Positions 12,713 to 43,240 of a stretch of 64,000 nucleotides of DNA are shown one piece after another (position 1 is the first letter of the stretch; each line of letters starts with the position of its first letter). This stretch comes from Macrocystis pyrifera (Eukaryota > Sar > Phaeophyceae > Laminariales > Laminariaceae). The stretch lies in the NCBI GenBank assembly GCA_031763025.1, contig JASSKH010000014.1, positions 11,851,201 through 11,915,200 on the forward strand, in the 5' to 3' direction. The notes beneath the pieces are model-generated. The model did no database searches and was not told where the DNA came from. It worked only from the letters and a program-made list of their open reading frames with translations. A program made the translations under genes and the position numbers.

Positions 12713-12770
12713 ATGCGTGCCGCATTCCTCTTTCTTGGACTTCTTCTCTCCCGCGTTAGCGCGTCTGATG
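12713..12770 (+). CDS. LRR gene unit 1, signal-peptide exon
   Basis: The ATG at 12713 opens MRAAFLFLGLLLSRVSASD, a textbook secretory signal: a basic residue, a leucine/phenylalanine core, then small residues suited to cleavage after SA. A GTGAGC donor follows at once (12771), so the exon would end in phase 1. This points to a secreted or surface protein whose later exons are the LRR cassettes downstream on the same strand. The link to those exons is inferred from order and strand. Reading on through the donor gives 100 codons without a domain. Confidence 0.5.
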
Positions 12771-14785
12771 GTGAGCGAGCGTTAGCGCAGTACCGTGTGT
12801 TTACTGCTGTAGGATACCTGTGTTGCAGTGCGCCTTATAATTGGCCCTGTTTGAATACCGCGATTAAAATATATATCGGTGATGTGGTGCTTGAAATTAC
12901 GGAACATAGTGAGTGGGACTGTACATCGTTGAGGGGATTCCAGCGACGTATTCAAGCGTCCGTGGTTTCAGTAAGGTCAAGTAGATATTGGCCGATACGG
13001 GAGATATGGATGCTGTAGAACATGACAGCGCCGAGTGGAAACCGTTCGTTTTCGCTACCACGTATCAAGTATTATTATTCCTCCAACCGCCGCACCGTAA
13101 CTTCTTCAGCTGATACCACAGCGTCCTTCCATTCCACGAGTTCCCATCGAACCATGGTGTCATACGAATGCTCGTTAGGCTCGAAATATGCGTTGTACGA
13201 TGGCGTATCTCGGCAAAGCAATACAGACACAGACTCTAAACAACGATATGTGGGCTACATGACGCTGAACAAATTCGCTAGGCATTCCACCGGTGAACCG
13301 AGCACATATATATATATACTTCAGTCGATGCGCGCAACTGTGTGTTGCAGGGATGGTTTAGTCCACGGCGAGGACGCAAACAGTTTTATCTCGTTCGACT
13401 GCTCTTCCAACATTTTACTCTAATTTGTCTCGAACCCCATGCCGTTGATGTTGTCACTCCTGCATCTCGTTCCCGTGGCTCTCCAATGACACTGATCATG
13501 GGGACGGGCACTGGAACCTCAAGCGATACCGTGATCACCTCCATCCCCTTCTACAACCGAGTCCATGTCCATACCTAGTGCGTCCGGTAGTCGTCGGTTG
13601 CGTTTGGCTGGCACTACACCCTTTAAAAATATATGAGAAAGACCATCGGATGAGAAAGGCCATAGGTGCGCACCTCGCACGTACCCTATAAAAAGGAGCG
13701 AATCATCAACGTTAGACAATGGCTGGCCGGTTAAGGGATGTTCTTCTCTTCCATGGAGAGAAAACCGCGCCGCACCCTAAGCATCTCAGCCGCAAAAGGC
13801 TCCGATGACACATGATTTAGAAGTTCCCTGTTCGCAACCATCCTATGTGCTTACTACTCGAGCTGCATCGTCCCCGGCGGTACAGTTGTTATACAGCAGC
13901 GTTGGTGTGGAGGTTGGTTGCGTTGATTCAAAGCCCCCGTTGGCGACACTTTTCATTCTGCTGAAATTCACGTTGAAAGCGCCTCACGTGGGTAGGAACG
14001 ACTCGACGGATGTCGACGAGGTGATATAGTACCGGCCCTTCCTCGCGAAAAAGGTATCTAAGCATATACCGTATTGAGGAGGGAGGATGCATGTTTGCTA
14101 TGTGCTCCAAGACCAGAACGCAGGCAAGGGTGGGAGCTGAATTAAAATCGTATGGCATGGTCGACCAAAAATGGAGAAAGCGGAAGCCTGCTTACGGCGC
14201 TTTAGGGTAAGTAGCATGCGCTATGCATCACGCTAGTGCTGCAATGGTCTGACATTTCTGGCTACCTCTCCCCGCCCGTGTTTGTTCCATCCGAGCAGGT
14301 GCAAACCCCTGCTACGATAGGTGCCTGAGTGGCACCAGTATAGTGTGAGTGCTCTCGTTATGGGGAACTATAATGTGTGGTGGCCTGTTTAACGAACGCT
14401 AAAAGCGAATCATATTTCTATGCGCGCAGGGGCGGGACGTATGGAATTGCAGGACATCTCGAATCTATCGATACAGCTGCTTTCGTATGCTTGACGCGGC
14501 GTCAGGCCTTGCAGCTTTGTTAGTACGACGCGTGTGTGCACCACCTGAAATGTCTACAGCCTCACGCACGTCTCGGCAAACGTTGATGGTCAGGTGGTTT
14601 GCACGGAGTGGCCTATTCTACTGGGTGTTCTGCAGATGGGTGGCGTGGGCTAAACGGACCCTACGTGCCAATATACCCGACCACGTGCCATGTCTCAACC
14701 TTAACAATTTTTTATCGCCGCGTGTCGTTTGGGGGTGCACGCTGTTTTATACATGCTACGTTCCAGCAATCTTTATGGCTGCCAG
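12771..14785 (+). other. unit 1 intron/exon space before the first LRR
   Basis: N-terminal exons may lie here, but none can be fixed. A 133-codon frame (13022-13423) has no domain. A GTGAGTG at 14344 follows a frame with stops. By position this part corresponds to 25-26.9 kb and 35.5-37.8 kb in the other units, with weak visible similarity. Confidence 0.3.
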
Positions 14786-14856
14786 CTGACGAATTCTGAC
14801 CTTCCGCAACTGGAGAAGTGCTTTGACGACGTTGGACGCGACAACATCCAATATGT
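14786..14856 (+). pseudogene. unit 1 LRR-like exon a (71 nt, degenerate)
   Basis: A CCAG acceptor precedes it and a GTGAGTG donor follows. The best frame gives LTNSDLPQLEKCFDDVG and then NIQYV, with the FD and final hydrophobic positions of an LRR. The asparagine ladder is weak and the length is one base short of 72. It is probably a decayed member of the cassette series. Classification as an LRR is uncertain. Confidence 0.4.
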
Positions 14857-15212
14857 GTGAGTGAGATAAGGCTCAACCAGGCCAGGTCATATCGCGTCGT
14901 CTCGCTTTGGGGCCGGGTGTTTCTCTCCGACGGGGTACTTTTGGTACGTTCCGCCTACGTTCTACAATATATATATTCGTACTATCGTCTAGTATCTCCC
15001 ACGCAATTCTCGGTACCAACAGTGAATTGAACATCTTGATAGTTATCCACTCACTGACTTGAGGGGTCTATTAATGGTGGGCACTCGCTGTGTCGTGTTA
15101 TGTAACGCTAAACATGCCGTACCGTTCTCGGTTAGATTCGGATATTGACGGTCTCTTGGCGCTAGTAAATTGCCCCTCAACGCCAAGTCTTTCCTGTATC
15201 CGAACCTCGCAG

Positions 15213-15284
15213 GTACCTATCGTCGAACGAGCTGACCACGCTATCTGCAGGACTGTTCGATGGACTTGGGAGCCTCAGGCTGGC
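15213..15284 (+). CDS. unit 1 LRR exon b (72 nt, intact)
   Basis: The exon runs from a CTCGCAG acceptor to a GTGAGTG donor and is exactly 72 nt. It starts with the last base of a codon and ends after the second, so it is phase 2-2. It encodes one 24-residue repeat, YLSSNELTTLSAGLFDGL followed by GSLRLA. That fits the typical extracellular LRR consensus LxxNxLTxLPxxxFDGLxxL. One repeat forms one coil of a ligand-binding solenoid. It is the best-preserved cassette in the array. Confidence 0.85.
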
Positions 15285-15869: not shown

Positions 15870-15902
15870 CTCGTTCGTTCGTTCGTTCGTTCGTTCGTTC
15901 GT
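15870..15902. repeat. (TTCG)n microsatellite
   Basis: About eight TTCG tetranucleotides lie directly before the acceptor of LRR exon c, where a polypyrimidine tract would normally be. Confidence 0.9.
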
Positions 15903-15914
15903 GTATCTCTACAG

Positions 15915-15985
15915 CCTTCTCAACGATAACAAACTGAATGCCCTGCCGGCCGGTTATTCGACGGGCTGGAGAGTCTGCAATATTT
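15915..15985 (+). pseudogene. unit 1 LRR exon c (71 nt, one-base deletion)
   Basis: A CTACAG acceptor and GTGAGTG donor frame it. The first half reads LLNDNKLNALPAG. After one missing base the second half reads FDGLESLQYL in the next frame. Adding that base would give the standard 72-nt, phase 2-2 LRR. As it stands the exon shifts frame if spliced in. The intron behind it (GGCTTGATTCACG..., ACCACACATATG) is similar to introns at 37927 and 39327 in unit 3, so exon and intron were duplicated together. Confidence 0.75.
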
Positions 15986-16473: not shown

Positions 16474-16545
16474 GTACCTCATGGACAACGAGTTGACGAC
16501 CCTTCCCGGGGGGCTATTCGACGACCTTGGAAGCGTTAGTGACTT
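16474..16545 (+). CDS. unit 1 LRR exon d (72 nt, intact)
   Basis: Acceptor GTCAAG, donor GTGAGTG, exactly 72 nt, phase 2-2. It encodes YLMDNELTTLPGGLFDDLG and then SVSDL, a clear typical LRR with the conserved asparagine, LTTLP and F-D positions. It is the last repeat before the C-cap exon of this unit, and its counterparts are 28317 and 39254. Confidence 0.85.
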
Positions 16546-17060: not shown

Positions 17061-17102
17061 GTTTTTGCAAGGAAACCCCGATCTGCAGTGCGTCCCCACC
17101 AA
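17061..17102 (+). CDS. unit 1 LRR C-cap exon (42 nt, intact)
   Basis: Acceptor CGGCAG, donor GTGAGTC, 42 nt, phase 2-2. It encodes FLQGNPDLQCVPTK. The pattern of a hydrophobic strand, NP, a hydrophobic residue and QC-VP is the start of an LRR C-terminal cap, which covers the end of the solenoid in extracellular LRR proteins. The counterpart at 39946 (YLQENSDLQCVPAK) has the same length and phase. The one at 28938 is broken. Confidence 0.8.
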
Positions 17103-17750
17103 GTGAGTCCTTGACGTTCGATCAATAGTGTAGCGGGAAAGGGTCTCCGCCGTAAGCTGGTATTCCTTTCATCGATATATATATATATATGGAAGCTATT
17201 GAATCAAGCCCACAGCGTCCACGATGAGTCACATTATTAAACTGTTGCCCAAACAGAAAGGAAACGATTTTTCGTAGTCAAACTTGCACCAGTTTGTTCG
17301 TGCCCACGTCGCACATATACTTGTCGGCCGCTTGATGAATGGTTACGCACGAACTCCACACTGTCTCATAGTTTGAGACTGGAGGTTGTGTATCGTCCTC
17401 TAGATATTTTATGAGCGCCGCCTGGGATGTCACGGAACGACCGGTTTTCCATGTACATCTTCTTTTGAAGTATATTCCCATGCTTGTTAATAAATCTCGG
17501 GAACCGCGAGTTTGGGATTTTGCATCACATCGCGCATCTCCCGTCTTCTACGTAGCCACTGTAAGTCTTTGTGGCCGATCGGTTTCCACCACAGCACTAG
17601 TGCACGTATATCCTAGATTTACGGTCAACCAATGAGTGGGCGTAGCGTGACGTTCACCCAGTTAATTGCTATTCTCCATCCTAGTGAGTGAGAAGACGAT
17701 TTTGTAATGAGACATCACCAATGCGAGCTACGGCGTATCCGACCCCCCCC
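17103..17750 (+). other. unit 1 intron space after the C-cap
   Basis: Holds a TA microsatellite near 17175 and GTAAGTC and GTGAGTG sites (17560, 17688) whose upstream frames I cannot match between units. The block ATTAAACTGTTGCCCAAACAG resembles GTTGCCTAACC at 29110 and GTTGCCCAACC at 40399, which supports unit homology. Confidence 0.35.
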
Positions 17751-17850
17751 TGCCCGCGGCCCAACCGTCCCGCCGTGCCTTTCTTGTCCGACGATACACG
17801 CAGCGTGGCAACCAATGTCAAAACTGACGGCGTTTACTTCGGTCAATGTG
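17751..17850 (+). CDS. unit 1 exon ending VYFGQCG (start unclear)
   Basis: The open frame runs NRPAVPFLSDD through TDGVYFGQC and ends with one base before GTGAGTGG, in phase 1. The corresponding frames are NSPVVPLMVHG through DITYDLCG before GTAAGC in unit 3 (40973), and a related segment ending DISFDQYG before GTGAGCGG in unit 2 (29751). The conserved end, donor position and order show an exon joining the phase-2 LRR part to the phase-1 exon behind it. The 5' border is not conserved enough to place. Function unknown. Confidence 0.6.
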
Positions 17851-18186
17851 GTGAGTGGATGCTCATGCAACTACATACATGGTCGGAAGCTGCGCTGATC
17901 GCGCTAGCTGACGCTTGCCACTAAATATGACATATATTGGCGACGTTTCGAAGCTATTCAGACAGGAGCCGACGTTTGTGCGGTGAATGAAGGGTCCGTT
18001 CTTTTAGCTGGGAAGTAAGTCACGTGGAGCATTCGCAATGGGGCCAAGGAGAGGTTGTTTTGTCTGCGTTGTTCGTGCCATAAATGTGTATGGGTCCTTC
18101 AGTGTTTCTAACTTGAGACTGCCAAAAACGTCCTGCCGCATCTAGATACTGAGAAATCTTCATTTCGTCGTATTTCCTCTCGGCAG

Positions 18187-18261
18187 AATGCACCCCGGAC
18201 GAGGCAGTATTGTGCAACAAGGGCTTCGACTGTGTTGCTGGGGAATCTGGCTACACTTGCG
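18187..18261 (+). CDS. unit 1 cysteine exon (75 nt, intact)
   Basis: Acceptor CGGCAG, donor GTTAGTG, 75 nt, phase 1-1. It encodes (E)CTPDEAVLCNKGFDCVAGE and then SGYTCG. The arrangement C-x8-C-x5-C-x8-C suggests a small disulfide module, in the manner of EGF- or ephrin-receptor-like repeats, but it does not match one family exactly. Exons of the same length, phase and position lie at 30057 and 41306. They share the pattern DC-hydrophobic-(A/P)G-x-x-GY. It probably sits outside the membrane, after the LRR solenoid. Confidence 0.75.
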
Positions 18262-21081
18262 GTTAGTGTGCGGCATCGGTTTCGTTGTCTCAGAGTAAAG
18301 TTGAACAGGGCAAGGACATGTCGTGACTTTAGTAGTGGATACCTGTAGTCTGGAGGCATGTTTCGTGAGGGTAAAACTGTTGATTCTGTCGGCAAACATT
18401 GTGCATCTACCCATGGGGTTGGCAATGTCCTGTTGCTTGTTGGTGTTCGTCCGTACTGGTACTAACACTCGCAGACCACCCCGTGAAAACGCAAGGGGAA
18501 ACACGCAAATCCTCAGAAACCAGCACGCCTGTTTGCCTTTCCTAGGCTGTCTTCAGACACTTTCCGGGAACTTGTCTGAGCGAAGAAATTTCATGCCAAG
18601 TGCCTAGTTCATACCTCGTATAGACTTCCCGTCGTAGGATTCATGAATCACACGACGAATCAAACCATAAATGAGGAAAAGCGCGAGAATAGAGAGCGAC
18701 AGGCCACGATGGACGAGGACAAAGGCACGTAAACCACCGGTTTGAGAAAGGACGTGGGTTTTAGCAAATCAGGGGTCATACCATTTCGAATTCTCCACAT
18801 CTTCCGAAGCCTAACGCCTGTGTAGGTTATGAATTCCGCTCTCCAGTCACCCATATACGGACAATTACACGAAACTCGTACGCACACCACCTAGTGGTTT
18901 CGGTGATGAGTGTTCGTAAGTTGTAGTGTGAACCTCTCGATGGGATCTGTTTTGTTTTTGGGTATCTCTGGTTTACTTGTCGACATGACGGGCATGCGTC
19001 CGACTATCAAACACGAAGGTCGGCCCCCTGGGTGGGGTGTTAGGGTGGCATACGGTGGACACAATCAACCCAACGGGATGCGCACCAGACAAGGTCAATC
19101 AGGAGTAGCATTGGTGTCTGAGGTGCGAAGAGTTTTATGAACGATGCATCATAGGCAAGTAGTCTACTTGCTTCTAGGAAGGCACGACATGTTTTCTCGT
19201 GGCTCGTGTCGAGGCCACCTGATCTTTCACTCCCCGTACAATGGATGCTCGCAAGGTAGAACTCCCGCGCCTCCATTTTGCGTAAGGAGCCAACTAATAG
19301 GTGACGAGCAGACACTGTCTGTCGCTCAGCATAAGATATGGTTTACGCTGTCTGCTGCGCGCAGCACAGCAAGCCGCCTGAACAAGCCGATTTGTAACTA
19401 CCTCGTACTGGAGTGTAGCACTGACGGAACCTCTGAGCCAGAAATATTCATTCTTGTAAATGTGTATTTGTGGCTAACCTACAACTATAGACCCGAGAAC
19501 GTACTGTTTGTGCCCGTTTGTAGGATAATGTACCACCACAGCCTAAATGCTATATACCATGCGCCATGCGATGTTTAGGTACAATTGAAGAGGTGCAACA
19601 ACTCAAACTCCTCGTAAGTACAGGACATTCGTGCCCGTTTAAGTAGTAATACGCTCCAATTTAGAGTACACGTGTATCGTCGTGCAGTTTGTTTTTTTAA
19701 CATCGCCCGTACACATCGTGCGTTTCGGGCGTTTCAATACGACACTCCAGAGAGCGCTGTGCACAAGGCGGGAGTCCAGTTTAATCTGTGAGACGTCTAC
19801 GCGACTGAACCGGTCATCAAAACCATCCAAACGAACGATCGGTGCAAACTCATCTGAAGTATCGCGCCGGAAATCGCTGTTGGAAAGGGCGTGCATCTGC
19901 ACGCGATTACGGGGGATTTCTCGAGAGAGTGCCCGCAGGCAACGTGAGCAGCCGGCATAGTATACATGAGAACTTCAACGGCGCTGCCACGCAGAGGGAA
20001 GGGTTCATTGGCTAAATGGGCTGGGGGAACTGCGACGACCATTCGATCGCTACTTTCATCCAAGGCCCGTCTGGGATATTTACGATTTGTTTTAAGTCTT
20101 GCTGCTCATTGCACTTCGCTGATACCTGATGGCGGGCATGAATGCGGGCGCTACCACCACCTAGACGTGCAAAGGGGGACTTCTAAACGTGCGATGGCTC
20201 GTACATTTCCACCAATTACCACCTCAGTTGATTCATGAGTCGAATCGGTATCGCACGGTGTGTCGTCTCATGTTGACTGAGTACGCATTATCCATACAGC
20301 AGTGAGAGAGAGGAGAGAGCGCCCTAATACTAGATACGACGGTTTCGATATTGAATTCTTGTGGCTTAGCCCTGTTTGCAAGGGATGTGATACCGGAAGA
20401 GAGTGGTACCCCAGTAGAAATCGGGAGAAGTGGGCGTCTGAGGATGGCGACGTGTGCCTGTGTTACACGGGTAGCTTTTCCATCCACTGTTGGCGTGGGT
20501 GGAGCTTTCTGAGCGTGTAGGGAGTCGGAAAGACGTGCTGTGGGGTACGAAAAACTGTACTACCCCGCCCCTGACTTTTTAGTGGGTACCGCAGTTGAAG
20601 CATTCAGGCTGTCTTTATACCCTGTGTTTTTTTTCGAGTGTTTGTCCAATTTAGAGAAGAATCTTGGGCACTGCACGATCCTGAGATGCAGGTACATTTC
20701 ACACGCAACACCCAGGGCGCGAATACGTGTGTTCATCGGGAGTGCCGTGCGTGCATGTACCCCGACATAAACACATGGTCTCGTGGCCACCGCGACCGTT
20801 GCATGCATATATAGACAATAAAAAAAAATGTCCGAGTTTTCGTCAACTGTTTTTTTTGCGTTGACGGACACTCCTGTGCGTCATCTGCAAGATATTACTG
20901 CCCGTGGTGCGACGGTGATGTGAACAAGCGTGTTGACTGGGTTAGACGTTATATACGTGTTGTTCACCTGATGCTTGGGGTGCTCGGTCAAAGGCCTTCT
21001 GTCCGGGGACACGCCCAGAGCTGCCGATGTGAAGTTATCTTCGGAACGTGAGTGCTCCATTTCCATGTGTGGAGTTTAGCT
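18262..21081 (+). other. unit 1 downstream space, exons possible
   Basis: The stretch 19700-19920 is similar to 31640-31740 in unit 2 and 41850-41950 in unit 3 but is open on both strands, so I do not call it. A 72-codon frame at 20302-20520 (+) is rich in C and W (CKGCDTGREW, DGDVCLCYTG) and partly resembles 32160-32230 in unit 2. It may be a further cysteine-rich exon. A GTGAGTG at 21051 follows a frame open from about 20894. Confidence 0.35.
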
Positions 21082-21330
21082 GTGTCCGGCAGCGGGTTCG
21101 GTATCTGTAGATTCAGGAAAGGTGGTAATTATGCCCTCCGTGTTTGCTACAGCGGCATGACGCGTACCCGGGGGGGGGGGGGACTTGGCACGTGCTCCAC
21201 GAGACCCTAGACGTGAGCGGCGGTGGGTTCAGTATCTGTAGGTTCAAGAATGATGGTAATGATACCCTGGGTGTTTACAAACGTGGCTCGACGTGTACCG
21301 GGGGGGGCGAGTTGGCACGTGACGTCTGCA
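21082..21330 (+). repeat. 130-base tandem duplication with a conserved frame
   Basis: Two copies (from 21082 and 21212) each encode a version of GFSICRFKNDGNDTLGVYKRG; the first reads GFGICRFRKGGNYALRVCYSG. A G run of 7-12 bases follows each. A third version, YCAGKDGEDALCVLAKRL, lies at 43087 in unit 3. Conservation of the frame across the copies suggests exon sequence. Splice borders are not clear. Confidence 0.55.
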
Positions 21331-21342
21331 CAAGACGGTAGA

Positions 21343-25086: not shown

Positions 25087-26942
25087 ATTACCTTTGATGT
25101 ATCATCCGGGACAATGCCCAGGCTACGGGCAAATTTATTCGTAGTTCGTACTGTATTCTGTTTGTTTCTCTGCATCAATCTTTAATAGTAACATCGGTTT
25201 GAGCATCGGTACTTATTGTGATGTATCAGATATACATTACACCTTACTATGAGTAAAACAGACTCGTAATTTGTCCACGTATTGCATGTGCCCCAATTTC
25301 CAAACCTGGATACTCGTAAACGTGTCAGTACGTAGTGACTGCACTTCATAGTGCAGAAAACACTTGTTTCTCAAGGTGATCATGGTATCAGTTGTCACCA
25401 TGAGAACGCCAAGTATGTGATACTGCCTCAGATTATCGGCGGCATGCGAGTCTCGATTTGAGTAAAACAGCTGGATATTTGACGGCTCTCTAATATTCTT
25501 GGCTCTTTCCCAAAATACTTGAACACCGGCTCCCTGATACGATCGCTCTCGCGTCTCGTTTTGAAGACTTTTCAATGAAAGTCAATAATTGTCGAGGGCA
25601 CAGACTAATTTAGAGATATCGGTTCCCACTTTAGGAATGTCGACGCTTGAGACCATGTCCACGTCTCTTGCTTTGGGTCATCGCCCCGTTGATTTCCGCT
25701 GACACCAGACACTTTCATTGCAGTTGGAGCTTGCATGTCCGCCGCTGCCATGAGACCGACCACGGTCGGATGATTGAGGTACACCATTCTTTTTTCGAAG
25801 TGACAATCACCGTGCTGTATTGAAGGAATCTCTTCTGCATGCTCATATTATACTCTTTGTGCCGGTTCGCTTCTCGCGTAAAAATAACGCCTTGTCTTTA
25901 GCGCTAGGTACCGCAGCCGGCCCTACTTCATCGTACAACTGTTAAACATGGTCGCTGGTCTGAATATCAAGGTACAGACTCGCACTCGGACCCGGCCGGT
26001 GACAACTACCAGTGCACAGCAGAGAGCATGGCGCAACGTGAGCCCACTCGTCACGAAGGAGCATGTCCTACCTATTGTTAGTATTACCTAGTGGTATCTG
26101 CCAGATATAAATATATACACACATGAAAATACGCGAACAACGGAGTAGTTTCATAACCGTACACGTTCCCAGCGTATGGAGGGCAAAATTCGGTTCAGTA
26201 GTATCTGCAATTCTGGTCAGACATGCACGGAGTACTGAGTGGAACTGCAGAGGCCGCCACCAGAACGGCGTGCAGGTGGTGTACTAACCGTTAGTGGTAT
26301 ACCATTTACGCGTTGTCTAATGTCGTTTTTGGTGCACTGCGGTAAACTCGTCGCGTTTCAGCAATTTCTGCAACTGCGTCTAAATGGATGAAGACATCCT
26401 GGACGTTGCGTGGTGGTTGGATGAAACTGGACGGGACACAATCAATTTCTTGTCGTGAATGATAAACGAGAGGCCGATTATTCCATGATCGCCTTGCTTC
26501 GAGCTTTGACCTTGAGTCCTTCCGGATACGTGAGCAGCGGTACCAGAAATCAAAGTGATTTCGAGATATGTTCCATCTACGTTCTATAACACCGGTGTCC
26601 GTACTTTCGACACGTGTCGCTACTCTATGGTGGGCGTCGATGCGGCATATGTATGTTTTGAGCCGTGCACAGATTCCTGCAATACTACAGAAGCGACAAT
26701 TCCAGATGTTGAGCCAGACCCGCCCTGGTCGGTTGAGATGACGGCGAGGACTTTTTTTTGTCATGTTAAAATCACTTCGTAACTTTCACGGACATAGGCG
26801 TGATATGTGTGGCCGGTTTGCATGTAGCAATGTTATCGCGCGAGAGTTGCCCCTCATCAACGCGACACCACATGTGCTGTGCTTTCCCAACTGCACGGTC
26901 CGTGAACGTGCTCACTTCTGCTAGGTATATGAACCTCGACAG
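25087..26942 (+). other. unit 2 space before the first LRR
   Basis: Possible N-terminal exons, none certain. A frame at about 25950-26037 (YQGTDSHSDPAGDNYQC) ends before GTGAGCCC and could be an exon. Another cysteine-rich frame lies at 26555-26782. I cannot match either to units 1 or 3. Confidence 0.3.
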
Positions 26943-27014
26943 CTTTTCAGGAGACAATCGTCTGACTACTCTCGCAGGCGATAGTTTTCACGGGCTTGTA
27001 CACCTGATGTGAAT
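26943..27014 (+). pseudogene. unit 2 LRR exon a (72 nt, stop at residue 23)
   Basis: Acceptor CGACAG, donor GTGAGTA, exactly 72 nt in phase 2-2. It reads FSGDNRLTTLAGDSFHGL then VHLM, an evident LRR, but codon 23 is TGA. The length and phase are still perfect, so the stop is a later point change. This unit would not make a full protein if the exon is used. Confidence 0.8.
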
Positions 27015-27590: not shown

Positions 27591-27662
27591 AAACCTTGAC
27601 GACCTTCAGCTAAGGGACGTTCCGTCTCAGCGATTAGACGACCTTAAGAGGATTGGATAATT
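27591..27662 (+). pseudogene. unit 2 LRR exon b (72 nt, stop at residue 23)
   Basis: Acceptor GTTCAG, donor GTGAGTA, exactly 72 nt in phase 2-2. It reads NLDDLQLRDVPSQRLDDLK then RIG, with TAA at codon 23. The LRR pattern is weak (LxLxxVPxxxLDDLxxI). Its identity rests mainly on length, phase, splice sites and place in the series. Confidence 0.65.
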
Positions 27663-28316: not shown

Positions 28317-28388
28317 GTACCTTTCGTACAACCAGCTGACCATCCTGCCGGAAGGGTTTTAAAACGATCTTGGAAGCTCTTACAAATT
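28317..28388 (+). pseudogene. unit 2 LRR exon c (72 nt, stop, lost acceptor)
   Basis: It reads YLSYNQLTILPEGF, a TAA, then NDLGSSYKL, an unmistakable LRR counterpart of 16474. The phenylalanine codon at residue 15 has become TAA. The acceptor position reads CACCAA rather than CACCAG, and the donor is GTAGGT. A cryptic ACAG lies 12 bases upstream. Three separate changes show that this cassette is dead. Confidence 0.8.
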
Positions 28389-28937: not shown

Positions 28938-28980
28938 TTTTTTAAATAGGAAACCCCAATCTGCACTTCATCCCAGCAAA
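28938..28980 (+). pseudogene. unit 2 LRR C-cap exon (43 nt, frameshifted)
   Basis: Counterpart of 17061 and 39946, framed by a CCGGCAG acceptor and GTGAGTC donor but one base too long. AAACCCCAATCTGCA still matches the NP-hydrophobic part out of frame, and an early stop appears. Degenerate. Confidence 0.75.
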
Positions 28981-29649: not shown

Positions 29650-29751
29650 CCCAAAAGCACCGTTTTGCCTTTTTTGTTCTGCGTTGCCCCACGTTCGACA
29701 CAGCGGTGCATCCCGTGGTTCATACTGATGATATCTCCTTCGACCAATACG
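29650..29751 (+). pseudogene. unit 2 exon ending DISFDQYG (frame disturbed)
   Basis: Aligns to 17751-17850 and 40874-40973. The first part reads STVLPFLFC in one frame, and the last part reads HTDDISFDQYG in another, before a GTGAGCGG donor at 29752. A small insertion or deletion between them has changed frame. The phase-1 end is kept. Confidence 0.5.
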
Positions 29752-30056: not shown

Positions 30057-30131
30057 GATGCAGTCAGTATATCGATATCCGGCACGAAACAATCATCGAC
30101 TGCGTGCCGGGGGAATGGGGCTACTCTTTCG
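30057..30131 (+). CDS. unit 2 cysteine exon (75 nt, open)
   Basis: Acceptor ACACAG, donor GTGAGTG, exactly 75 nt in phase 1-1. It encodes GCSQYIDIRHETIIDCVPGE then WGYSFG. It keeps two cysteines and the DCVPGE-GY core of units 1 and 3 and has lost the other two. Open although the LRR part of the same unit is broken. Confidence 0.65.
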
Positions 30132-32360: not shown

Positions 32361-32532
32361 GTAGGCTTTTATGGACTGCCGTACAGGTACAATACCTCTG
32401 TTATGTTCGTCGCATCATTTAGAATGTACCTGATGTAGTGGGTGAAGTGGGCTTTGATGGATTGCCGTTCAGGTACAGTACCTCTGATATGTTCGTCGCA
32501 TCATTGAGAATGTACCTGACGTCGTGGGTACT
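32361..32532. repeat. 86-base tandem duplication
   Basis: Two copies start GTAGGCTTTTATGGACTGCC and GTGGGCTTTGATGGATTGCC and both contain ATGTTCGTCGCATCATT. About one tenth of positions differ, so this is younger than the unit duplication. Confidence 0.85.
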
Positions 32533-33119
32533 GCAAGAAAAGAGGCATGCAGGCTATTTTTAAGATATGCGCATTTTCGAGTGCATGACCTATTTGGATA
32601 TCATTCGTGGGCACGATAAAATATGGAAGTGTAGGCGAGTTCGAAAAAAGGGGGCAATAGCAGGCGTGCTGATCGGGACTGTCGTTGGGTGCATTTGGTC
32701 CATGTTCACGTGCGCACCGCAAAGGAGGCAACTATACATATATAGAGGGTGTGCTACTAGTTTGATGTTTCGGTGAATTTCGATGGAATTGACGAAACCC
32801 CATGTGTGTGACATGCAGGCGTTTTCTGTTCATGAAACGACTATATTAAGAGCAGGAGTGCTGACCGGGTGAGACGCTCGATTGTGGGTTGCGCGTGGTC
32901 TTTGAGGGGCGCAGCTGCAGCCGCTACATCCGGGACTCACCCACAACTACTGACGAGGCATTTGAGTACTTAATCCTATGGGTGGAAGGTCTGGTTGGAC
33001 ACAGACTAGAGCCGCCGTTTCCGTCATCCGGCGCTCGATCTTAGGTTTAACGAACTGTGGTGTGACTGCCCCGTGTGATTTGTGAAGCGTGTTGACCCGA
33101 ATATAGGTGGTAGCGAGAT

Positions 33120-33239
33120 ATTGCGTGTACTGCACGGGGTCGTAGACGTCAACGGCGAGTTCGTCGACATGGGCGGATCGATCAGGCGCTGTTTGGATCG
33201 GCGGTGCTATCTTGTTGATGGCAGTGAGGGCAGTGCGTA
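33120..33239 (+). other. unit 2 EFVDM / HVDEL segment, strand undecided
   Basis: The plus frame reads LHGVVDVNGEFVDMGGSIRR and on to a TAA near 33240. The minus frame reads QTAPDRSAHVDELAVDVYD within a 99-codon frame. The same segment at 43175-43240 keeps the minus frame open (QTSDRSIHVDELPPLVYD) while the plus frame has two stops. That favours a minus-strand gene or a decayed plus exon in unit 3. Confidence 0.4.
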
Positions 33240-34429
33240 AAAACACATGTGACCCAATGTAGCGAACTCACTCGTGGCCTTGGGGAGCGCTCGAGTGTGT
33301 CCTGCATATCGTGATATATGTCCCTTCGATTTTCTTCATACTGTACGTGATGCATACCACGGTACATGCATGATTTGAGAGCACCACATTAAAAACGCCG
33401 ACGCGCAATGCGAGGGGAATACCAGAGCAAACGCACCCTGCCAGCCACACACCTGGCAAATGCTGCTGTTAGCCGACCACTTAAGGTACGAATATGCTAC
33501 AACGCCGGGCTGACGAGCGAGGTTGAAATGGACCAGCGGTCTGGTATTGCGGTCTCGGTTGCAATCAAGGGTGATGGCTTCGCGTCTGTGAGAACTCCGT
33601 TAGTCTCCGAGCGCAACTTGACTCTCAATGCAGCTGAAGACAAGCTTCGGCCACTTCGTCTCCAAACGGATGCGCTGGCCCCGCCCTGCGACCTACTGGC
33701 GGCTACGCCCTCGTTCTTTACCTCTCCTTCCTCAATTGGATCGTCAACACGTGGCGAACACGTAGAGACGGGGGATTGCTTAATGTTCAACCGTGTTTGC
33801 TTAATGTTCTGTAATACCAGGTACTAACAGAAGCCAGGATGACTCAAGAACGTTTTCGGAGAAAGTTTTCATTTGTCAACCATTCCGTAATTTTATTCGA
33901 AATATGTTTTAATGCGCCTCAGCACCGTCTAATTGTACGTTCCGAACATAAATGGTCGTGGGAGATACAGGTCAAGGATCGATTTCCCTAGAGCATGCCC
34001 TTGGTACAACAAATTAGGCGAGGAGCAAAAGGAGGGAGCAAGAGGTGTTCGTGCGTAATGCTGGTAGGATGTAATGTGTGGTCGAGTTGTTTTCCTGGCC
34101 ACGAGCACAGCATGGCGAGGACGACTTCGTTGCTGCTTCCTGATGTACCATACGAATACAGCACCACGCCAATGCAGCGGCCTTTTATGATATCCGTTCA
34201 GTTCGAAATAACGTCATACTTGGTTTCGTGCGATACCATGAGGTGCCGTAGACATCCTTGATATAACATGGTGAGTACCGTATGAAGGTCGATCTCAACG
34301 AGGAGTGTTTTTCAGTTTGTTCTAGAGTTTCCAGCAAATTCGGTATTTCCGTATGAAAAATCCTAAAAGTACCGAAAATACTGAACCACAACTAAAAAAC
34401 AGTCCTCGTTAAGATCGACCCCAACACGG
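33240..34429. other. no exon fixed; distal unit 2
   Basis: A 139-codon plus frame (33408-33827) and a 97-codon minus frame overlap and have protein-like composition, but no domain or splice site settles the strand. A TACCAGGTA motif occurs near 33817. Confidence 0.3.
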
Positions 34430-35500: not shown

Positions 35501-35703
35501 CTATGGACCACAACGGTTGACCCCGCCAGGTGTTACAAGCAGTACCATCGGATACTAAACACGCCCACACGCACTCATACCAAACATCTCGTACCGCCTG
35601 TACCTCGCAGCAGGTACTGAGTTACGTGCACCATGTTATTATTGAAAGCAACAGTTGACTATTTTGGTATCCCCTCTCTCTTTTTCGGTGTTGTGGTTTG
35701 TAG

Positions 35704-35845
35704 CAACTGTCCCCTCGTCATATCTGGAAGGAGTTGTCGCCTGCGTTTCGGATGAACGCCTCGCCCCTTCGTTCAATCGACATCCGGTTCTGGCCAGGCA
35801 AACAGCAACCAGTACAAGTGCTGATAACATCGTCAAACACCTCGT
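35704..35845 (+). CDS. possible exon ending NIVKHLV
   Basis: Preceded by TTTGTAG and followed by GTGAGTG, this 142-nt frame reads VPSSYLEGVVACVSDERLA and on to NIVKHLV. The copy at 36730-36872 keeps 31 of 49 residues and has lost the acceptor AG. The minus strand is nearly as well conserved (THEV-DDVI--C--CCLP-QN), so even the strand is uncertain. No family recognised. Confidence 0.35.
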
Positions 35846-36729
35846 GTGAGTGACCAGAAGAGCCAAAGTAATCAACCTGCTAGCAGTAGTCGGTCCCCAG
35901 CTCCATACTGCCTTTCACGTAACACCGGCGTCATCGCCAGGACGCTTTTGCTACCTGCGCGAGTTCTGATGTTTTTTTTCCGTCAAACAATTTGGCTTTT
36001 CGCTCTTGTAGTCTCTTATTTCGGCTTCTTGCGGTTTATTTGATCTCTTCTCTTTTTGGTGATTGCGTTCGAGAGTATATTACCCGCCGCTTCTCCAGCG
36101 CGTTGCGCGGTGAGACTGATAAAACAGCCGCAGTAGGTTCACCCGCAGTGGGTCCGCGCGGCGCAGGGGATTTCTCGTATTCTCTCGGTCCGCCTAGTTC
36201 GCCCTGAACCGCAAACGCGGTTTGCGCGCCGTGGACTCCACGGGTCATGACGACCGTGGCGGCGACACCTCGTCCCCTCGCAACTCCTCTTGGCGTAGCG
36301 TTCGTCCTCGATGCGGCCGTCTGGGAGGTTTCAGCTGAGCGACGTCCGAGGCGGTGGCGTTGGCTTGTGTTTGGCAGGGGCCGAGCGCTTGCGAGGGATC
36401 CTGATCAGTTTGCGGGACTTCAGCCCCGTCGACGACGAAGAGGAGTTTTCTAGAGAGGAGGCGCCGCCGCCGCGGTCGTGGTGAGCCTTGGACTCCATCG
36501 CGCGCGAATCGCGTTTGCGATTCGCAGTGTCCACGTGTAATCGACCACAGACTTGCAAGTTCGAGGTAGTGGAGTGGGTTATGACGTACCGCATCTTCGA
36601 CCCATTCTCCGACTTCTCCGGATTGCTTTTGTTCGTGCACGAGTTTTCTATGAATCTTCATATACGGTCCTTCAGTGTGGGCTAGTGTTATGGTATGTTC
36701 TCTCCCCTGTTGCGATGGTATGGTTTGTA

Positions 36730-36872
36730 CCAATCGTCCCCTCTTTATACCTGGCAGGCGTTATCATCTGCTTTTCTGATGAGCGCCTCGCCCTTTCGTT
36801 CAGAAGTCATCAGATTCTGGCGAGGCAAGCAGCAACTAATACAAGATCCTATAACATCGTCAAGCACCTCAT
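36730..36872 (+). pseudogene. second copy of the NIVKHL exon
   Basis: It reads VPSLYLAGVIICFSDERLAL and on to NIVKHLM, before a GTGAGCG donor. The acceptor position reads TTTGTAC. It probably arose by the roughly 1-kb duplication and then decayed. Confidence 0.35.
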
Positions 36873-37275
36873 GTGAGCGACCTGAACAGAGCCGAAGGCA
36901 TCAACCTGCTGGCCGTAGTCGGTCCCTACATCCATACTGCCTGGCACTTAACATGACCCAGCCAGCCGTTACAAGCACTATCACCGGATAATTATACACG
37001 CACACACTCACGCATATCAACCATATCGCACCTGTACCGCGTACTGGGATACGTCTACCATGTCGTTATGAATAGTAACCCTTGACCCAACCAGGCACTA
37101 CACGCACATCACCCGAAAACATAAAACACTCCCACAAACACGCATACCATACATACCATACCTGTAACGCGTGCTGGGTTACCGGCACGTCCTACGAGTC
37201 GTTTGGGACCACGATAGCTGACTTCATCAAGCGATACAAGCACTACCACCAAGTAAAGAATAACACGCCCACATG

Positions 37276-37854: not shown

Positions 37855-37926
37855 ATCTCTTAAAATCAACGATGTGGGCGCCCTACGACTCGGGCCATTC
37901 AACGGTCTTGACAGTCTAGAACACTT
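37855..37926 (+). CDS. unit 3 LRR exon a (72 nt, intact)
   Basis: Acceptor CACAAG, donor GTGAGTG, exactly 72 nt in phase 2-2. It encodes SLKINDVGALRLGPFNGLD then SLEHL. It has the F-N-G-L and final L-x-x-L positions of the LRR and no stop. Its sequence differs strongly from the cassettes of unit 1, while the intron behind it (GTGCGGCTTGAT, ACCACACATATAAG) matches the one at 15986. Confidence 0.75.
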
Positions 37927-38441: not shown

Positions 38442-38513
38442 ATTGCTTTCGGACAAACCCATGGCATTCTCGACAGAAGAGATATTCAACAACCTCCGAA
38501 ACTTTGACACCTT
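38442..38513 (+). CDS. unit 3 LRR exon b (72 nt, intact)
   Basis: Acceptor TCACCAG, donor GTAAGTG, exactly 72 nt in phase 2-2. It encodes LLSDKPMAFSTEEIFNNL then RNFDTL. It is open and keeps the F-N-N-L and closing L positions. The LTxLP part is replaced by MAFST, so it is an atypical repeat. Confidence 0.7.
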
Positions 38514-38668
38514 GTAAGTGGGCGATGACAGCAGGTCTGAATTTGTTTCCCTGAGCTTATTCAGAAGTGGTCGATGTATTGGGAATTCCCATTCACTCGG
38601 TTTGGGCGCGAAGCGGCTGCAGGATTGTTCAAAAGTGTCAAGTTGCTTCGAAGTTCCAGTTATGCATA

Positions 38669-38781
38669 CTATTACGGGGGTCCATAGTTAACAGGACCAA
38701 ATATTGTTAGTAAAAATACCTAAATATATAGGTTTTTATGTATGCCATAGGTCCTGTTAACTATGGACCCCCCCGTAATAG
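38669..38781. mobile_element. palindromic MITE, copy D
   Basis: The cleanest copy. TATTACGGGGGTCCATAGTT and its inverse AACTATGGACCCCCCCGTAATA enclose ACAGGACC...GGTCCTGT and an AT-rich centre, flanked by TA on both sides. It lies in the intron between unit 3 LRR exons b and c. The matching introns of units 1 and 2 lack it, so it inserted after the duplication. Confidence 0.9.
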
Positions 38782-39252
38782 AAGGTATTGTGACAGGCGT
38801 TTCGTCCAAATATGGCTCGATACGACGTCTAGTATGCGCTGCGTGGGTATCTAGCCGGACCGAGCAACGCCAGAGGATGTTTAACGTTGGCGAATATTAT
38901 GAGCACGTTTTCTTTTATGTACATTATACATGCCTGTGTATTCGTATGAAATTCCCATGATGGGCAGGCGAGGAAGTTCGGACACATCGGACTGTCGTGC
39001 GACATGGTTATGAAACTTTGGACACTTGCCTCGCACTTGTCGCTAGCCGATTGCCAGCTCCGCGATTGCTGACATATATATAACTCTAAAGCCCCGTCAA
39101 GGGTAAACACCGTGATGTCGCCTTGATAAGTGTGATAATTCACGGTTTATGGCGAAAATGAGTGTAACACACGTTTATACGATGAGCAAACGGTGGGGTG
39201 GATTCACAACGACTGGCCGACCCTTCCTTTTCGCTGCGGTAAGCACCATAAC

Positions 39253-39326
39253 GTTTCTTGCGAACAACAACCTGAGTGCCCTACATCGCAAGCGTTTTTT
39301 TTCGAGCTTGTGAAACTACAACAGTT
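39253..39326 (+). pseudogene. unit 3 LRR exon c (74 nt, frameshifted)
   Basis: It reads FLANNNLSALHR, then after a shift around an eight-T run FFFELVKLQQL, before GTGAGTG. Its length is 74 instead of 72. No AG stands at the expected acceptor (ATAACG). A clear LRR by its LANNNLSAL core, but broken. The upstream residues TIT match NIT before 28317. Confidence 0.75.
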
Positions 39327-39945: not shown

Positions 39946-39987
39946 ATATCTGCAAGAAAACAGTGATCTCCAGTGCGTGCCCGCTAA
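39946..39987 (+). CDS. unit 3 LRR C-cap exon (42 nt, intact)
   Basis: Acceptor CAGCAG, donor GTGAGTC, 42 nt, phase 2-2. It encodes YLQENSDLQCVPAK, close to FLQGNPDLQCVPTK of unit 1. The two differ by four residues over 14, so this exon is under more constraint than the repeats before it. Confidence 0.8.
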
Positions 39988-40873
39988 GTGAGTCGCCATC
40001 GTTCCGTGAATGCAGAAGGGGTTCGCTTATATTTGATAAAATATGCATGACACGGTGGCGGTGCACCCTGAACGGTCCGAGGTTCTCGACATGAAGATAT
40101 ACATACCCAAAGCACCGACTGACTGTAGAAAGTTACTCGCAATGCGATAGAGAAGCCTATGTGAGCGTTCGTACACAGAATACAAATTTTCCATTTCAAA
40201 AGGGATGAGTAGTTCCACGGTGTAGAGAGATGGCCGGGTAGCAATACGTTGTGTACGACGTGCCGACTCTGTCAGAGCTAGCGTCAGGGGTTACGGGTAT
40301 GTTTTCATTTCGAACGAAGGGTGGCACTACCGTCATCGTGCGTGTTTTGTTCCTAGCATCGAGCGGGCGTCCACCGTGGCGGGCGGAATGGTGACACCGT
40401 TGCCCAACCTGAGAGTAACCGATTCTGCATGCACAAATCAGAGATGCTATCCTGATTAGCACGTCGCGTATGTACACCTCACCCTGATGTTGGCTGTCGA
40501 TCCCGTTGTTTTACCCACGGACCCGATGACATCGTCTTGCTCGATGACATATCATAGATCGGTACTGGAGACGTGCACTATCCCGTCGATGGCAGGTAGA
40601 ATATGTCTCCACGTCTGCGACCAGGTCTCCGGTGTGATCAGTTTGGTATCACATCGAGTAATCTTTGCCGTCCGAGTATCCAAGGTAGATTGAAATGGCC
40701 GATCCATTCCCACCTCAAAGGAGTGCGTGTTGTTCCCATGGGAGCATTTCACATTTTGGATGGCCGGCCTACCGTTCGGCGGCTTCTTGTCTTCCATCAT
40801 TGAATGTGAAACGTCCAACAGGTAATCATATATCACCCGTGCCTTTTACAACGTGTCCGACGCCCATTAACTC
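39988..40873 (+). other. unit 3 intron space
   Basis: Patches match unit 2 (GTTGCCCAACCTGAGAGTAA at 40401). A minus frame of 94 codons (40552-40836) overlaps, with no domain. Confidence 0.35.
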
Positions 40874-40973
40874 CGCCCGGTGCCTAACTCTCCCGTCGTG
40901 CCACTGATGGTCCATGGTTTTCGAAACGGCGCAACCGAGGTGGTTGTTAATGACATCACGTACGACCTGTGCG
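40874..40973 (+). CDS. unit 3 exon ending DITYDLCG (start unclear)
   Basis: The open frame runs PVPNSPVVPLMVHG through NGATEVVVNDITYDLCG and ends in phase 1 before GTAAGC. It corresponds to 17751-17850, with the conserved words P-x-VP and Y-x-x-CG. The 5' border is not placed. Confidence 0.6.
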
Positions 40974-41305
40974 GTAAGCAGAAAACAAACAGCGGTCTAT
41001 CAACTTCGAACAACTTGTGCTAATGTTTTAACCCCACAATAACACATACCAACGTTGAAGTTCGAGGTGATAGTGCAAGTTGAAATGGATAATCATGCCG
41101 TACATTAACTCTCAGTTACGTTGACCTGGAAAGTGTGCAGTATCGATCGGCCACTATAGCCTCTTCGAGCTTTATAACTCCTTCTGCATTTCTTGGCGTG
41201 GTGGACATGGCTGATCTTCCATTCTGTAGTTGAGACTACAACAAAGGTACTTTCGCATCCAGATAGTGACGTACCTACATTTTTCCTTTGCAAAACACAT
41301 GGCAG

Positions 41306-41380
41306 AATGCACCTCGGAAGAGTGGAGTTTAGTCTACAACGGCCCCGACTGCATAGCTGGGATATCTGGCTACGCTTGCA
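41306..41380 (+). CDS. unit 3 cysteine exon (75 nt, intact)
   Basis: Acceptor ATGGCAG, donor GTCAGTG, exactly 75 nt, phase 1-1. It encodes (E)CTSEEWSLVYNGPDCIAGI then SGYACS. It has three cysteines: those at both ends and in DCIAG match unit 1, and the second cysteine of unit 1 is absent. Open and apparently usable. Confidence 0.75.
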
Positions 41381-43080
41381 GTCAGTGCCCTTCGTCTTCC
41401 TATTGCCTGAGCATGTATTTAAAACGGGCACGGCAATGCAGTGTACGCAATAATGGACGGCCTGTTGACTGTACGCTTCAAAGGTGATTTCGTTGACAAA
41501 CATTATGCATGCAGGTAAGGCTTCATTAATTGTAGTGTCTGGTTGCATTACAATGGCACGGTTGCTGTCGTTCGTAACTCATCACCTAAGCACAAGTTAA
41601 GCCCGATATGGATCACTGTGTGCCAAATTGATGAGATGTTTTGTATTCCAGTCCTTCGGGTCGAACTCTTCATCCGCCCTCCACTCCAGCAACTTCGTCT
41701 AAACACCTCCCGTTCTTGGCGTGCATTCAACACTCAAAACCTAACTCTGGACGAATGACTATCCACAAGCTGGCAGGCTCGCATAATCTGTCGCCCGTGC
41801 GTCCGAATGGCATCGCTCTGGAAACCGTCCACGGGAATAATTGGCAGATACAGACTCATGATACCCGGCAGAATATTGCACGTGCACAGGGGCGGGCTTC
41901 GCCGCACACGGCAAGGGGGGAGGCCCCGACAGGACGCCCCAAGGCAACGTGCGTAGCCTGTAGAGTGCTTCATAATGGGCATGTCGGCGTTGGTACACGA
42001 GGAAGCACGTTCGTCAGTCCACGCAGGGAGGAGCGAACTGCGGTGGTCAACTAGTCGCTCCCTCGTTCCGATGTCTGGATAAGACATTTTCATGTTGTGT
42101 AGGACCTGCGCACCAGCTCACGTGACTGGTCAGTCGTACTGCGGCAAAAGGGGGGGGGCGTCGAATTCCAGTATAGCTTCTGCAATTTCACTAAACATCG
42201 CCCAGATCGATGCAGTAGTAGTGCTAGTCCTGCACCCGGCAAGGCCGTGTTTGGATTCATCCTACGGATTACATCCCTATCGGATGGCGTCGTAGAGGGG
42301 GACCCCGCGCCAGGGACTACACCCTTTCGTAATACCTCTCGGTGACTTAGACGAAGGTATAGGGTGCGAGGGGACGGGAATCGTAAGACATTGCCGGGTT
42401 GATGCGGATTGAAGCTCGACTCTGTGTGACTGCATGGCACGTGTATCGTTTTCCTTGCCTTCTTGAGGTGGCAAGTGCTCAACAAGCGTGGTGTAGGCGG
42501 GGAGCGAGTGCCATAGGGGTGTAACCCTTCCCCGAGAAGTCTTCCTCCCCTGAGCATATGGTTGCGTTGTTGCATCGACCTAGAAATGCGTGCAATTGTT
42601 TTATATATAAATATACTTATCAAAACTGTATGGTCGAATTAGATAGTATTCGTGGGCACCTAGCGGTCATCAGCTACGGGCGTAGGACTTCATTCAATGC
42701 GTTGGGCACGCGCGAGCGGGTCCATCGAGACCGCCAGCGTTTACGTGTTCGCTCACCTAAGTACATGTCTTCATGGCCACCTCAAAAAGGGCAAGCCTAT
42801 ACGAGCTGTTGACGACATGCAACTATGTTGATGTTTTTGACATCGTTGGTTGGCATTGGTGAACCATCCTGTGTATGGGATGCAGGTGAAATTATTCGCT
42901 TAAACCGACTCAGGTACGAGCAAGCGTGTTTCATGCGTGATACGTCGATATATGGGTTGGAACGTGGTCCTTGAAGTGCGGAATTGGAGCAGCTTTATTC
43001 GGTGAATCTTTGGGGGATTTCTTCGCAGAGTGAATGCTTGTTTCTGATGGTGAGGAGTCCAGCCGTATCCGCCATTGGGC
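41381..43080. other. unit 3 downstream space, exons possible
   Basis: 41850-41950 is the counterpart of conserved stretches in units 1 and 2, strand undecided. A 177-codon minus frame at 42090-42623 and a 119-codon one at 41734-42093 have no domain. 42920-43000 matches 32870-32930 of unit 2. Confidence 0.35.
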
Positions 43081-43240
43081 CCTCTATGTACTGTGCCGGC
43101 AAGGATGGTGAAGATGCCCTATGTGTTTTGGCAAAGCGGCTTTAGGTGTATGCGGCGTAGAGAGCTTTAAGGAAGTGCACGGTGTCGTAAACTAGGGGTG
43201 GGAGTTCGTCGACATGGATGGACCGATCTGATGTTTGCAG
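43081..43240 (+). pseudogene. unit 3 counterpart of the KNDGNDTL and EFVDM segments
   Basis: 43087-43140 reads YCAGKDGEDALCVLAKRL, a relative of ICRFKNDGNDTLGVYKRG at 21231. 43175-43240 carries the EFVDM segment with stops on the plus strand, while the minus strand is open (SIHVDELPPLVYD). Confidence 0.4.

Follow-up and report, generated by a model that had tools for sequence, protein, structure and literature searches.

Organization of the three tandem units

The window, which is the whole 64,000-nt stretch of Macrocystis pyrifera DNA that was analysed, carries three collinear LRR units on the + strand (Table 1). A self-comparison with sensitive scoring returned kilobase-long matches, mostly of 52-64% identity, and the same-strand similarity among units 1-3 reached E values down to 3e-38. 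The unit-scale self-similarity expected from a dot plot was thus present under sensitive scoring, while default self-blast gave one exon-scale inter-unit match only (18113-18268 to 41230-41387, 72%, E 3e-13).

Nine LRR exons were placed in units 1-3, six of which are exactly 72 nt long (72, 71 and 72 nt in unit 1, 72, 72 and 71 nt in unit 2, 72, 72 and 83 nt in unit 3). The C-cap exons measure 42, 43 and 42 nt, and the cysteine exons 75 nt in each unit, in phase 1-1. Start-to-start spacing was 11.60-11.90 kb between units 1 and 2 (7 exon pairs) and 10.12-11.25 kb between units 2 and 3 (5 exon pairs). The initial annotation had described three tandem LRR units, with each LRR on a phase-symmetric exon of its own as kelp LRR cassettes and a 42/43-nt C-cap followed by a 75-nt phase 1-1 exon, and this description was borne out by the collinear + strand matches, the placed exons and the profiles built outside the window. 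Its exon rule and its tandem repeat also stood, but its numbers were revised, as it had counted ten LRR exons with seven of 72 nt and had given spacings, close to those measured, of 11.8-11.9 and 10.0-11.2 kb. The fixed cassette length holds for most exons but has exceptions: four units downstream of the window have a last LRR exon of 81 nt. That first reading had missed three exons, at 14299 (46 nt), 14767 (90 nt) and 17804 (47 nt), as well as the relic at about 44.4 kb. Searches of the window for tRNAs and for Rfam families reaching the gathering score both came back empty.

Table 1. Exons and exon relics of the LRR units in the window.
Feature	Position	Strand	Remarks
Unit 1 exon 1, signal-peptide-like MRAAFLFLGLLLSRVSASD	12713..12770	+	58 nt, phase 0-1; top signal-peptide profile match in the window
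Unit 1 two-cysteine N-terminal exon	14299..14344	+	46 nt, phase 1-2; resembles U0 exon
Unit 1 LRR N-cap exon	14767..14856	+	90 nt, phase 2-2; profile match
Unit 1 LRR exon a	15213..15284	+	72 nt, phase 2-2; profile match
Unit 1 LRR exon b	15915..15985	+	71 nt, broken frame
Unit 1 LRR exon c	16474..16545	+	72 nt, phase 2-2; profile match
Unit 1 C-cap exon	17061..17102	+	42 nt, phase 2-2; profile match
Unit 1 linker exon (X)	17804..17850	+	47 nt, phase 2-1; profile match
Unit 1 cysteine exon	18187..18261	+	75 nt, phase 1-1
Unit 2 N-cap relic	26362..26454	+	93 nt as bounded; in-frame stop
Unit 2 LRR a relic	26943..27014	+	72 nt, stop; by itself within the range of shuffles (25/200 reach it)
Unit 2 LRR b relic	27591..27662	+	72 nt, stop
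Unit 2 LRR c relic	28318..28388	+	71 nt, stop
Unit 2 C-cap relic	28938..28980	+	43 nt
Unit 2 linker exon relic	29704..29751	+	48 nt, altered frame
Unit 2 cysteine exon relic	30057..30131	+	75 nt, open, cysteines lost
Unit 3 LRR b	37855..37926	+	72 nt, open
Unit 3 LRR c	38442..38513	+	72 nt, open; LRR signal weak
Unit 3 second LRR b relic	39244..39326	+	83 nt as bounded; stop
Unit 3 C-cap exon	39946..39987	+	42 nt, open; profile match
Unit 3 linker exon relic	40929..40973	+	profile match at 40928; acceptor AG absent
Unit 3 cysteine exon	41306..41380	+	75 nt, open; two compensating indels flank one lost cysteine
Fourth relic, LRR resembling downstream array	44400..44468	+	acceptor AG absent; profile match

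Unit 1 shows a single lesion, the frame break at its 71-nt LRR exon b, and forms one open frame throughout when this exon is omitted. The protein spliced in this way matched Pfam LRR_8 (PF13855) with 42.7 bits and an E value of 4.7e-11, the curated cut-off being 27 bits. Since the accessible part of the assembly description mentions Racon alone for polishing, the break in exon b could reflect a mistake of the assembly. Unit 2 is a pseudogene, stops or frame changes occurring in six of its seven exons (N-cap, three LRRs, C-cap and linker). Unit 3 is a relic without a detectable 5' part, as signal peptide, two-cysteine exon, N-cap and LRR a were sought and none was detectable; its linker relic, when aligned directly to unit 1, did not rise above shuffles (58/200).

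Profile searches and controls

Profiles were built solely from loci outside the window. They ranked the LRR, C-cap, N-cap, linker and signal-peptide exons of the window first. The eight best matches of the LRR profile on both strands corresponded to seven unit exons and the relic at 44400; scores of 51.0, 49.7, 28.4 and 25.9 exceeded the best of 40 Markov shuffles (20.6), while scores of 20.1, 19.4, 15.7 and 12.3 fell below it. The C-cap profile scored 51.8 and 41.2 versus a null maximum of 30.2, the N-cap profile 64.0 and 32.4 versus 24.0, and the two profiles based on one seed each scored 47, 37 and 36 versus 35 (linker) and 38.0 versus 34.0 (signal peptide). The window cysteine exons were not recovered by a cysteine profile from the downstream units.

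General searches were less specific. The plant-type LRR expression gave six matches in the six frames of the window, none within unit exons, and a looser expression matched two exons of unit 1 plus one unrelated site. When 72-nt AG..GT candidates were scanned, the LRR exons of unit 1 ranked under many chance candidates, such naive scans being non-discriminating. An LRR_1 search returned no match in the kelp genome and none in the control genomes either.

The upstream relative and the downstream array

A relative, here named U0, lies 26-34 kb upstream and is intact as far as traced. Its 11 exons show AG at 10/10 internal acceptors and GT at 11/11 donors, consistent phases and no stops, and its cassettes are already contiguous in the assembly. 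U0 was traced through its cysteine exon and is incomplete, the coding end beyond lying outside the trace. The spliced protein matched Pfam LRR_8 with 158.5 bits (3.4e-47), above the same cut-off. All five of its LRR exons are 72 nt in phase 2, compared with three LRRs in unit 1, and the single b-c block of unit 1 aligns with L2-L3 as well as with L4-L5 of U0. The difference supports an in-frame gain or loss of cassettes, in agreement with what had been proposed for the locus. Over 159 codons the comparison of U0 with unit 1 returned a dN of 0.33, a dS of 1.11 and a third-position excess (binomial p 0.0011), a pattern which shows purifying selection between them, as judged from one pair at high dS with LRR b excluded.

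Further same-strand LRR units span window coordinates 103 to 192 kb, four of them, spaced about 12.05 kb apart, sharing 96.7-97.9% identity. The idea that the youngest of these units carry hypervariable exons was considered and rejected; their exons are almost unchanged, thus giving no recent sign of diversification. When the downstream units were searched with signal-peptide, two-cysteine and linker profiles made from U0 and unit 1, no counterpart emerged. Only the subgroup described here yielded a signal peptide and a linker, and secretion is not extendable to the wider family because the downstream units gave no signal-peptide counterpart.

Across the genome, 57 N-cap matches were obtained at E<=1 on 16 contigs, 31 of them at E<=0.01; the 26 with E above 0.01 include U0 and unit 1. 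Forty-three of the 57 are grouped, two or more together. A same-strand cysteine exon occurs 3.4-13.3 kb downstream in at least 23 of the 57 places, while among the matches listed 34 places have no cysteine exon and none of the 57 has one within 16 kb on the other strand. Related exons are spread over the kelp genome.

Origin and possible function of the units

The locus combines its exon anatomy with collinear units, of which units 2 and 3 have decayed, and with a recently amplified cluster downstream on the same strand. Units 1-3 are very probably old tandem duplicates of a single gene type for a probably secreted LRR protein, whose spare copies decayed. The gene product would consist of a signal peptide, a two-cysteine segment, an N-cap, 3-5 LRRs of 24 residues, a 14-residue C-cap, a linker and a cysteine tail. 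The encoded protein is probably secreted: the putative signal peptide of U0 and unit 1, read by eye, is conserved between both, and the signal-peptide-like first exon noticed in the initial annotation is present in unit 1. Since N-cap, LRR and C-cap exons are all in phase 2-2, cassettes can be added or removed in frame, and intron-intron recombination might do so, while tandem duplication would multiply whole genes and leave spare copies to decay. The protein may act outside the cell and bind a ligand on its LRR face, and the label of receptor for this gene type is putative.

A membrane-anchored receptor, with its transmembrane and cytoplasmic part encoded by further exons located past the cysteine exon and ahead of the following unit, is possible but rather doubtful. 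Because of its phase 1 end, the cysteine exon must be followed by further coding sequence or a read-through stop, and the similarity of U0, unit 1 and other units extends kilobases past this exon; however, no hydrophobic exon common to the units was recognised and none of the blocks looked exon-like, in two tests of which neither is strong. No transmembrane or signalling exon was recognised 3' of the cysteine exon. A shared terminal transmembrane exon was rejected, the candidates differing between units, and a short 3' exon common to U0 and unit 1, suspected by eye, was unsupported.

It is quite improbable that units 1-3 are all working parts of an active receptor locus exchanging cassettes and skipping the broken ones. 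Skipping of symmetric exons would keep the frame, unit 1 is open once exon b is left out, and GTGAGT or GTAAGT still ends many decayed exons. However, with lesions in nearly every exon of unit 2 skipping leaves almost nothing, and unit 3 shows no detectable beginning. The view of the three units as a working locus was therefore abandoned, and the lesions rule out that they are all intact genes, unit 1 having one frame break.

Relation to ROCO genes and other LRR proteins

LRR-ROCO GTPases of brown algae were reportedly the subject of an earlier study (Zambounis et al. 2012). The 72-nt phase-2 LRR exon is already published for these genes, as the accessible part of Teng et al. 2024 (PMC11378527) describes one LRR per exon of 72 bp in phase 2, except in groups 3 and 4, with varying cassettes. 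Relics of LRR-ROCO genes would share this exon rule, but are a most improbable source of the units, disfavoured by exon anatomy and by distance to the Roc matches listed: LRR-ROCO proteins run on into Roc-COR, whereas the kelp units have a signal peptide ahead of the LRRs and a C-cap, linker and cysteine exon ending the LRR run. The nearest of the 63 Roc matches listed is 297 kb from any N-cap place, which is not proof, as just 100 candidates were scored, introns split the domains and Roc also matches other small GTPases; a single listed match (1.38 Mb) falls on this contig. The COR search gave no match anywhere in this genome, hence no weight was put on COR near the units.

According to the same partial source (PMC11378527), Saccharina japonica has 15 sequences outside ROCO with LRR exons of 72 bp, most of which consist of LRRs alone and which may form a reservoir. 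They resemble the kelp units in having shuffling-type LRR exons without Roc-COR, but caps, secretion and arrays are unmentioned in that part of the text. The combination of signal peptide, N-cap, LRRs, 42-nt C-cap, linker and cysteine exon was not found in open-licence PubMed Central papers.

Exon shuffling has been put forward as a source of diversity in the LRR and TPR receptors of brown algae, a debate resting on ROCO and NB-TPR genes. As a tentative proposal, kelps might hold a large germline repertoire of secreted cysteine-capped LRR proteins for extracellular recognition, separate from ROCO/NB-TPR and evolving by tandem gene amplification and in-frame cassette gain and loss, with the window at its birth-and-death edge. 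If true, this repertoire would be so far undescribed. Arrays in which young near-identical copies occur together with old decayed ones make it possible to measure how cassettes are gained, lost and selected, and also to test inherited versus tissue-made diversity.

Many animal extracellular LRR proteins carry cysteine caps. Acid labile subunit, LRRC15, chondroadherin, LGR4 and lamprey variable lymphocyte receptors have 24-residue LRRs like those of the kelp units, and the matches of U0 to such animal proteins in a PDB list fall mostly within the LRR part. Somatic assembly of the variable lymphocyte receptor kind completes a germline gene by inserting LRR cassettes, and in U0 the cassettes already adjoin each other in the assembly. 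A scan of viral contigs with U0 returned no relative, and a phage tblastn with the LRR composite gave a single matching record, a Leptospira phage LRR protein.

Exon Organization and Decay of the Tandem Units

Unit 1, the first of three tandem LRR gene copies on the + strand, showed the exon order reported in the table, with GT-AG borders at all eight introns and consistent phases except past the 71-nt exon (LRR b). This sole defect could be an assembly error, since polishing with Racon is described for the PacBio assembly. Unit 2 contains an N-cap, three LRRs, C-cap, linker (lying between C-cap and cysteine exon) and cysteine exon, while unit 3 comprises three LRRs, C-cap, linker and cysteine exon. 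The repeats described in the initial annotation were recovered, their number being corrected from ten LRR exons, seven of 72 nt, to nine and six. A stop or altered length affects 6/7 unit 2 exons, the cysteine exon of this unit being open but with cysteines lost, and two of the six unit 3 exons are broken (the second LRR b and the linker). Upstream in unit 3 the signal peptide, two-cysteine exon, N-cap and LRR a were undetectable, their best alignments being reached by 32, 189, 92 and 164 of 200 shuffles respectively. With these lesions, the idea of an intact locus had to be abandoned. Two placements are weak when taken alone, namely unit 2 LRR a (25/200 shuffles reach its score) and the unit 3 linker (58/200 by direct alignment; third rank by profile).

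Default self-comparison of the window returned one exon-scale match between units. Under sensitive scoring (E up to 10), the 12-49 kb region gave 45 same-strand and 7 opposite-strand pairs, and the unit-scale same-strand similarity, for which a self dot plot had earlier been proposed as a check, was present, including the 11.85-kb diagonal. Unit-scale diagonals account for many of the strongest same-strand pairs and also cover introns and the stretch past the last known exon; other pairs are unrelated repeats, e.g., at 35.7/36.7 kb and the palindromic elements. The duplications are old, because identity along the diagonals is mostly 52-64%.

Profiles built from sequences outside the window were scanned on both strands against the maximum of 40 shuffles. 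The top eight LRR matches corresponded to seven placed LRR exons and a relic at 44400, four exceeding the shuffle maximum and four not, and the C-cap and N-cap profiles gave two matches each above it. The one-seed linker profile scored 47, 37 and 36 (shuffle maximum 35) and the one-seed signal-peptide profile 38 (maximum 34). The cysteine profile made from downstream units missed the window cysteine exons, whose identification relies on unit-to-unit alignment: for units 2 and 3, 0/200 shuffles reached the alignment score, and units 1 and 3 share 72% over 161 bp (E 3e-13, default self-comparison). Since the cysteine exon leaves the reading phase at 1, it has to be followed by a read-through stop or by additional coding sequence; 3' of this exon, no hydrophobic exon common to the units was recognised and no conserved exon-like block stood out, and the product may be secreted or membrane-bound.

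Coordinates (window numbering unless a contig is named) and composition of the features
Feature	Position	Details
Unit 1 5' exons, in order		signal peptide 58 nt; two-cysteine exon 46; N-cap 90
Unit 1 LRR exons, in order		a 72 nt; b 71; c 72
Unit 1 3' exons, in order		C-cap 42 nt; linker 47; cysteine exon 75
Unit diagonal	19646-20416 vs 31492-32266	shift 11.85 kb; E 2.8e-38
Unit diagonal	19695-21173 vs 41698-43157	shift 22.0 kb
Unit diagonal	17518-18495 vs 40642-41596	shift 23.1 kb
Unit diagonal	32394-33326 vs 42439-43368	shift 10.0 kb
U0	-33821 to -26612	11 exons, 715 nt, five LRRs
Downstream N-cap exons	near 103, 122, 134, 146, 158, 170, 180 kb	
Near-identical tandem LRR units (L011-L015 and neighbours)	119169-168555	four units, two LRR types alternating
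LRR units on two contigs	G000:C195:8446751-8461255; G000:C207:10141190-10155703	near-equal spacing, equal scores
Direct repeat, 270 bp	35658-35924; 36684-36953	78%; upstream of unit 3, whose 5' part is undetectable there
Palindromic element	9872-9968, 10616-10728, 31389-31500, 38667-38783, 46654-46768, 52735-52848, 52921-53052	both orientations
Interspersed repeat, ~300 bp	2596-2918, 3227-3525, 11774-12109, 61772-62106, 62478-62813	five copies, 71-92% identity (self-comparison)
Open stretch	56153-58363	- strand, 736 codons

The Upstream Relative U0

Within the 300 kb of flanks examined around the window, the upstream relative (U0) carries the same seven exon types, is stop-free with consistent phases, has a 72-nt cysteine exon and appears intact as far as traced (11 exons; 3' end not found). 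U0 and unit 1 align over 2.9 kb (54%, E 2.5e-64), and the block formed by the fourth and fifth LRRs of U0 (L4-L5) gives a second alignment to the unit 1 b-c block, showing that a b-c pair of cassettes was added or dropped with the frame kept. The initial claim of in-frame change holds for this pair. Recombination within introns would be the means, and extracellular ligand binding is the putative role of the protein. Over 159 codons (omitting LRR b, U0 L2, L4 and L5, and split codons) 91 residues are identical, with dN 0.33 and dS 1.11, and six introns forced into global alignment showed identities of 0.48-0.56 vs 0.41-0.46 for reversed controls. These values indicate that the gene type was under purifying selection during part of the time since U0 and unit 1 split.

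Downstream Array and Genome-Wide Distribution

Over 364 kb, an LRR profile whose seeds included sequences from the region itself scored above threshold at 66 places. Of these, 64 are + strand, and at 44 an AG and a GT enclose precisely 72 nt. Four downstream units are mutually 96.7-97.9% identical, in steps of about 12.05 kb, their last LRR exon measuring 81 nt and their cysteine exon 84-87 nt. For ten exons of these units, each copy was set against a single reference, leaving aside an eighth LRR-like segment per unit that has no AG acceptor (e.g., 152262). Lengths were equal in 26 of 30 comparisons (17 without any change, 9 differing by one or two substitutions) and changed in four; the change in exon A1 of one unit, D135, looks like a local-alignment artefact since the LRR profile scan reads this exon whole. 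These 30 comparisons gave no sign of recent diversification in the four units.

The genome searched, in which the window is G000:C194:11851201-11915200, comprised 537,376,219 bases on 223 contigs (Table 1 of PMC10498591 gives 537 Mb and 223 contigs for giant kelp, Macrocystis pyrifera). At E<=10, a composite query returned at least 149 matches across many contigs, many of them weak, and a downstream-type N-cap query found 57 places on 16 contigs at E up to 1, 56 stop-free and 31 at E<=0.01. U0 (E 0.018) and unit 1 (E 0.17) were among the weaker places, and unit 2 was not among the 57. At gaps below 150 kb the places form 28 groups, 14 of which have at least two members and hold 43 of the 57. 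No fewer than 23 places are followed, 3.4-13.3 kb downstream, by a same-strand cysteine exon (16 pairings from composite-query matches alone, 7 from exons read in flanks); among the matches listed, none was found for 34 places, and no place had an opposite-strand one within 16 kb. The similar units on contigs C195 and C207 may reflect either a split assembly or segmental duplication of recent date.

No downstream counterpart was found with the U0 and unit 1 profiles for the signal peptide, two-cysteine exon and linker. Because neither signal peptide nor linker was recovered there, we propose only tentatively an undescribed kelp germline repertoire of secreted, cysteine-capped LRR proteins, changing by tandem amplification and in-frame cassette change and possibly serving extracellular recognition.

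Relation to ROCO Genes

The rule of one LRR per exon, cited as known in the initial annotation, agrees with published work (Teng et al. 2024, PMC11378527), where each LRR exon is 72 bp and phase 2 in ROCO genes (LRR GTPases with Roc-COR) of four brown algae, groups 3 and 4 excepted, and 15 non-ROCO Saccharina japonica sequences carry such exons; the cassette rule is therefore already known. These shared exons could make the units relics of LRR-ROCO genes, but the nearest Roc match, among the 63 listed of 100 scored candidates, is 297 kb from an N-cap place in a search blind to introns that also matches other small GTPases. We consider this origin highly improbable, though slightly less so because the Roc search is limited to those 100 candidates. 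The S. japonica sequences are described as mostly LRR only, whereas the kelp gene type has caps and probable secretion, an architecture not found in our literature searches of open-licence PubMed Central papers.

Other Features of the Window

The open stretch on the - strand overlies an 82-C run of the + strand (polyglycine) and gave no hit to Pfam at E<=0.001. The palindromic element (97-132 bp, seven copies), with ends like TATTACGGGGG...CCCCCGTAATA, resembles a MITE, and one copy sits between two unit 3 LRR exons.
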